Shown: piece after piece, positions 42,360 to 45,958 of the stretch
Layout of the letters: each line of letters begins with the position of its first letter
Numbering within the stretch: the stretch's first letter is position 1
Assembly: GCA_014706385.1 (NCBI GenBank)
Contig: JACGZH010000002.1
Span: 682,001 to 746,000 of the forward strand
Source: Phaffia rhodozyma
Taxonomy: Eukaryota > Basidiomycota > Tremellomycetes > Cystofilobasidiales > Mrakiaceae
Direction: 5' to 3'
DNA length: 64,000 nucleotides
Notes under the pieces: model-generated
What the model was told of the DNA's origin: nothing
Seen by the model: the letters and a program-made list of their open reading frames with translations, nothing else
Databases searched by the model: none
Made by a program: the position numbers and the translations under genes

Positions 42360-45958
<3,599 letters not shown>

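Follow-up and report, generated by a model that had tools for sequence, protein, structure and literature searches.

An exon of a single nucleotide is a very rare gene layout, and one that is usually missed by gene-finding programs. Nuclear examples in print are found in the plant genes APC11 (PMC4674806) and VPS55 (PMC8831610) and in the Fusarium gene CYP621A, the last of which is called the first for a fungal gene by its authors (PMC12940212). These precedents bear out the rarity that a preliminary description of the locus considered here, a candidate one-nucleotide exon in the helicase gene DBP2 of Phaffia rhodozyma, had ascribed to such exons. Two further pieces of background concern the gene and the organism. 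For intron 2 of S. pombe dbp2, conservation of both position and length has been reported in S. cerevisiae and in higher eukaryotes, and the intron is said to lower dbp2 expression through Mmi1 (PMC4695336). P. rhodozyma and other Cystofilobasidiales, in turn, carry around 7.5 introns per gene, which has been described as the highest number known for fungi (PMC5103461). RNA-seq data exist for P. rhodozyma (PMC4393869), among them data for strain CBS 6938 (PMC5103461).

Within the window, the whole 64-kb stretch of P. rhodozyma DNA that was analysed, the A at position 45186 is very probably a real one-nucleotide exon of DBP2, lying between a GT-AG intron of 882 nt and another of 82 nt. The prediction of the exon is strong and comes from the logic of the sequence, from the conservation of the protein and from a splice model that was trained on its own predictions. 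As in CYP621A, a single base of a fungal nuclear gene lies between an AG and a GT, forms the middle base of a conserved codon that is put together from three exons, is needed for both the frame and a conserved motif, and is absent from annotation. However, CYP621A is an ascomycete P450 gene in which the base is a G and the interval is 139 nt, compared with 965 nt in DBP2, and its exon is found in at least 20 orthologues and is backed by SRA reads (PMC12940212). The DBP2 candidate resembles A333 of APC11 in that it is a single A between AG and GT that is needed for the frame, in that the upstream part of the interval is the longer and the downstream part the shorter (332 nt upstream within an interval of 422 nt in APC11), and in that sequential splicing has been proposed for both; the plant exon, in contrast, was shown by cDNA and by base changes in reporters, whereas the DBP2 exon, here as in the comparison with CYP621A, is predicted from the sequence (PMC4674806). 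The one-nucleotide microexons of APC11 and VPS55 that were described from RNA-seq are likewise missing from reference annotations and likewise have a strong donor beside the single base, but they are conserved across land plants and VPS55 has alternative isoforms (PMC8831610). Placozoan cox1 also contains a one-base exon, although this gene is mitochondrial and has trans-splicing introns, whereas DBP2 is nuclear with GT-AG introns (PMC5436844). With the regulatory introns of DBP2, dbp2 and DDX5 the locus shares a long intron late in the same gene, but the accessible text on those introns describes no one-nucleotide exon (PMC4695336). No such exon in a basidiomycete or in DBP2 was found in the titles and abstract openings of the open-licence papers listed in literature searches. 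The DBP2 exon would thus add a case, in an unusual setting, to the nuclear one-nucleotide exons already known. The features of the locus, in window coordinates, are as follows.

42360..45958, forward strand: DBP2, a DDX5-type DEAD-box RNA helicase gene, from ATG to stop in a hand-built model
44285..44303, forward strand: 19-nt exon GTC GCT TCC CGT GGT CTT G, encoding VASRGL and the first base of the Asp codon
44304..45185, forward strand: 882-nt intron GTATGT...CTACAG, the long DBP2 intron, from the hand model and the gene finder
44586, forward strand: rival one-nucleotide A exon, TAACAG/A/GTTTAT, giving the exact protein but not favoured
44814, forward strand: rival one-nucleotide A exon, CTGGAG/A/GTATCT, giving the exact protein but not favoured
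45165..45169, forward strand: branch-point-like CTCAC of the 882-nt intron, a consensus match only
45186, forward strand: candidate one-nucleotide exon A, supplying the middle base of the Asp codon (GAT), from the need for frame and Asp, splice scores and null tests
45187..45268, forward strand: 82-nt intron GTTAGT...TAACAG, predicted by the gene finder at five of five intron penalties
45248..45252, forward strand: branch-point-like CTAAT of the 82-nt intron, a consensus match only
45269..45334, forward strand: 66-nt exon T GTC AAG GAC..., beginning with the third base of the Asp codon
45416..45424, forward strand: 9-nt microexon inside HRIGRTGR, from the hand model and the gene finder
45508..45517, forward strand: 10-nt microexon inside HRIGRTGR, from the hand model and the gene finder

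The hand-built gene comprises 12 ordinary exons together with the one-nucleotide exon and encodes 558 amino acids, with the open frame closing at 45958. Its assignment to the Dbp2/DDX5 family, as put forward in the preliminary description, is upheld by the homologue search, by the best solved-structure match of the product (8ark, yeast DBP2, E 4.1e-209) and by the presence of both the Pfam DEAD and Helicase_C domains. The RG(L/I)D of motif V and the HRIGRTGR of motif VI, which mark the family, are obtained only with the extra A. The 9-nt and 10-nt microexons are consecutive and together encode part of HRIGRTGR. At the boundaries of interest the sequence reads GTCTTG/GTATGT at 44303/44304, CTACAG/A/GTTAGT around 45186 (45180-45192) and TAACAG/TGTCAAGGAC at 45268/45269, such that an AG acceptor immediately precedes the candidate base and a GT donor immediately follows it. 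A second branch-point-like motif, CTGAT, lies upstream of CTAAT in the 82-nt intron.

The need for the extra base is apparent from the reading frame. A direct join of CTTG (44303) to TGTC (45269), with the expected mRNA junction GGTCTTGTGTCAAGG, is out of phase and gives RGLVSRTLS...; from motif V onwards the reading is out of frame, motif VI is gone, and the Helicase_C score falls from 118.4 to 62.0 bits as the match shrinks from profile positions 5-110 of 110 to 5-79. With A45186 included, the expected junction is GGTCTTGATGTCAAGG and the product is an intact 558-residue Dbp2 with RGLDVKDI and HRIGRTGR. The base is therefore required both for the frame and for the conserved Asp, in agreement with the earlier proposals that the flanking exons cannot encode the Asp of RG(L/I)D without one extra A and that a one-nucleotide exon at 45186 supplies it, which the sequence, the frame and the splice scores now support at that exact position. 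The Asp codon G/A/T is most likely put together from three exons, with its bases at 44303, 45186 and 45269, and this three-exon codon most likely sits within the long intron of DBP2, whose position is probably conserved in other fungi, to judge from the break points of homologue models and from the published account of dbp2 (PMC4695336).

The Asp is present at this site in all four of the solved-structure alignments shown and in 116 of 127 collected homologue models, the latter being the best 120 of 7064 matches, as listed, plus 7 new ones from a second protein search. The remaining 11 models (P0023, P0095, P0115, P0119-P0124, P0126 and P0127) break at the Asp codon of motif V or are without the motif: ten diverge directly after RG(L/I) and P0115 has no motif. 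Five of them continue as RGLGK (two), RGLGE, RGLGR or RGIGM, as would be expected of models that read on through a donor placed behind the first base of that codon, and we infer that an intron at this point is probably common in fungi. The model from Saitozyma podzolica (P0023) reads RGLVKDIK and is missing just the Asp. Phaffia Dbp2 itself was found neither among the best 120 of the 7064 matches listed nor among the 12 of 28 candidates listed, the protein-search candidates being restricted to models of 0.55-1.75 times the query length; another Phaffia protein is present in the same protein database. The 11 deviating models, together with the absence of Phaffia Dbp2 from the matches listed, indicate a blind spot in annotation.

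The splice signals were assessed with a gene finder that combines a third-order coding model, matrices for donors and acceptors, a term for CTNAY branch motifs and intron lengths, and that was trained on 200 kb of the same genome (20 loci) plus the 64-kb window, with 595 introns in the last round. Once long introns were allowed, the predicted genes with 450 coding nt or more contained 605 introns and 536 internal exons. The best-scoring path through DBP2 reproduces the hand-built gene exactly, and A45186 is the only one-nucleotide exon among the 536. When 41500-46500 was excluded from training (565 introns), an intron that ends at 45185 and one that spans 45187-45268 were still predicted at all five intron penalties; the 882-nt intron was whole at four of the five and in pieces at the mildest, and a 12-nt exon at 42767 was missed at the two harshest. 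As an outside check, the phosphoserine aminotransferase that the gene finder predicts at 15669-17192 on the reverse strand matches a public P. rhodozyma protein at 100% over 397 amino acids, which also ties the window to this species.

Both introns flanking A45186 have splice signals that are normal for the organism, and in each the A of a CTNAY motif is placed 17 nt ahead of the end of the intron. Among 609 predicted introns the donor of the candidate stands at the 78.7th percentile and its acceptor with branch at the 89.0th, so that CTACAG and GTTAGT deserve the description of good acceptor and good donor that they had been given at the outset, with the proviso that, for these percentiles and for the shuffle test described below, the training set included the 82-nt intron of the candidate itself. 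GTTAGT is used by 31 of the 595 training introns. A point against the candidate is that the exon base before the donor of the 82-nt intron is an A, as in 18.6% of predicted introns, with G accounting for 44.8%. A length of 82 nt is ordinary, since lengths between 77 and 87 nt are found in 127 of the 603 other predicted introns, and it fits within DBP2, where the other introns from 42779 on are 74-83 nt, the 882-nt one aside.

Among the rival explanations, the one that survives best, although it is improbable, is that one A has been lost next to the junction, either in the assembly or in the strain, and that the interval is a single intron of about 965 nt in which the AG-A-GT at 45186 is a coincidence. 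A single missing base would indeed explain the frame, an intron probably interrupts the same codon position in other fungi, and the case for A45186 is built on one sequence. The splice signals themselves, however, argue for the split. Even with the frame ignored, the splice terms of the hold-out model favour dividing the interval at 45186 by 3.42 nats, while the other three AG-N-GT positions of the interval score between -6.43 and -18.25 nats, and of the 248 remaining introns of 100 nt or more, which were predicted by the same program, not one has a favoured split. With 41500-46500 again held out, no AG-N-GT in 528,000 bases (264 kb, both strands) apart from A45186 itself attains the combined score that A45186 has for donor, acceptor and branch. 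One of 604 acceptors has a site this good 40-300 nt upstream, and because there is only one such site in the 528,000 bases, this match would be the candidate itself, as reached from the next acceptor of DBP2 at 45415. An AG-A-GT of some kind was present in 2121 of 5000 dinucleotide shuffles of the interval, but in none of the 5000 did an AG-A-GT, or any AG-N-GT, offer a split with so high a score. Further points against a lost base are that there is no homopolymer on the exon side of the junction, that a genuine loss would disrupt a conserved gene and, indirectly, that just one of the 603 predicted introns falls below 60 nt, so that the set is not rich in tiny introns such as would patch coding indels. 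The reading frame and the splice signals, which are independent of one another, thus point to the same base, A45186.

It is even less probable that the one-nucleotide exon exists but is another A, above all A44586. An enumeration that allowed one middle exon of up to 61 nt, with GT, GC or AT donors and AG or AC acceptors, gave the exact protein from six positions, every one of them a single A. Three of these, 44586, 44814 and 45186, have GT-AG introns on both sides, and the other three, 44445 (AC-AT), 44871 (AG-GC) and 45087 (AC-AT), do not. Use of A44586 would give an identical protein, such that cDNA alone cannot distinguish which A is included, and its acceptor is at the 43.3rd percentile. 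Its donor, GTTTAT, is only at the 6.7th percentile, however, the splice terms oppose a split there (-6.43 nats) and the score of the gene is 9.9 nats below that of the A45186 model. A44814 is worse on every term, with its donor at the 2.5th percentile, its acceptor at the 0.0th and a gene score 21.5 nats lower; the direct join lies 26.3 nats below. The earlier preference for A45186 over the other single-A exons is accordingly sustained by the poor donors of both, and the alternative that had been placed near 44585 does correspond to an A that yields the exact protein, although its position is 44586. Longer microexons that retain some Asp (7 nt at 44628, and 10 nt at 44772 with variants) alter residues, and the two that were scored fall 14.2 and 19.8 nats below the A45186 model.

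Less probable again is splicing from a late donor at 44308 (GTGTCT), which would require just one intron and would keep the frame, giving the protein R-G-L-G-I-V-K without the Asp and the cDNA string CTTGGTATTGTC (expected mRNA junction GGTCTTGGTATTGTCAAGG). When all single splices between GT or GC donors and AG acceptors were enumerated, two retained the downstream protein without a stop in the short product: a GC donor at 44288, leading to VDIKY..., and this late donor, leading to RGLGIVKD. Neither retains the Asp of RGLDVK. The late donor therefore exists much as it was initially portrayed, holding the frame but yielding L-G-I, but it stands at the 0.5th percentile of the 609 predicted introns and its gene score is 8.8 nats lower; its use would also add one residue and lose the Asp that is found in 116 of the 127 homologue models. 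The weakest proposal, that the interval is a stwintron, in which one intron is nested in a splice element of another, can draw on the occurrence of stwintrons in fungi and on the near contact of the two DBP2 introns, but is scarcely credible because what nested introns take out together is a single uninterrupted interval. The Asp is not restored by any one GT/GC-AG excision, since the genomic sequence allows no one-step removal after which an A would separate CTTG from TGTC.

With A45186 as an exon, the manner of its splicing can be outlined. It has been argued for APC11 that the spliceosome is too large to define a single nucleotide as an exon (PMC4674806), and with an exon too small for exon definition splicing should proceed intron by intron. 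The 82-nt intron, which is of normal size for Phaffia, would be recognised by intron definition and removed in a step of its own, and the 882-nt intron would be removed in a separate step, either before or after it; no spliceosome would therefore have to define the single base as an exon. If the short intron were removed first, the long intron would meet CTACAG/ATGTC, and if the long intron were removed first, the short intron would meet CTTGA/GTTAGT, with either order giving an identical mRNA. In terms of origin, the long intron may be the old, conserved DBP2 intron that follows the first base of the Asp codon, and the second intron may have been gained one base downstream of it, in a lineage of very high intron density. 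It is because of this density that such a gain is the preferred origin. A rival origin, in which an exon base is lost and a cryptic one-base exon is then captured, has been proposed for CYP621A (PMC12940212). When the genome (19.77 Mb, 15 contigs) was searched with very common words skipped, the 82-nt and 882-nt introns each matched only themselves, and hence no introner-like family was seen.

Skipping of A45186 would leave the frame open to 46160, giving 625 amino acids with an acidic tail and no motif VI, with the stop falling in the last exon. Retention of the 882-nt intron brings a stop codon starting at 44360, and retention of the 82-nt intron one starting at 45263. As skipping loses motif VI and intron retention brings early stops, it is conceivable, though unlikely, that A45186 acts as a switch inside an autoregulatory DBP2 intron, in which its inclusion would yield active helicase and Dbp2 would tune its own level. 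TNAAAC, the Mmi1-type motif named in PMC4695336, occurs three times in the 965-nt interval, at 44935, 45160 and 45222 on the forward strand, against around 1.1 expected, and 76 times on the forward strand of the window; enrichment on this scale is not convincing. An Rfam scan of 42300-46300 gave five matches up to E 5, all of them far below the gathering scores, and a non-coding RNA in the DBP2 intron was rejected on these grounds. A scan of viral_contigs for relatives of the locus returned one unrelated match at 59%.

Few nuclear one-nucleotide exons are in print, and the DBP2 case belongs to a conserved helicase gene of a highly intron-dense yeast group, with a 9-nt and a 10-nt microexon close by. 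It also probably lies within the intron that is described as regulating the gene in fission yeast (PMC4695336). If confirmed, it would make Phaffia a microbial model for the splicing of two sites that are one base apart.

Several smaller observations were made alongside. A 319-residue open frame runs antisense to the main DBP2 exon at 43168-44127 on the reverse strand and also appears in a gene-finder model; it is probably a codon-bias shadow. The gene finder also calls one exon of 0 nt, one of 2 nt, three of 3 nt and two of 5 nt, predictions of which some are probably errors. The zero-length exon lies between 8255 and 8256 of the reverse complement of locus L013, where TCACAG abuts GTATGT and divides a 481-nt interval into 184 and 297 nt, and is either a recursive-splicing-like site or a prediction error. 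The 2-nt exon is found at 4044-4045 of the reverse complement of locus L023. Two of the 3-nt exons are in the window, on the forward strand, at 60914-60916 and at 38642-38644, the latter inside a predicted gene for a secreted protein at 37499-40141.
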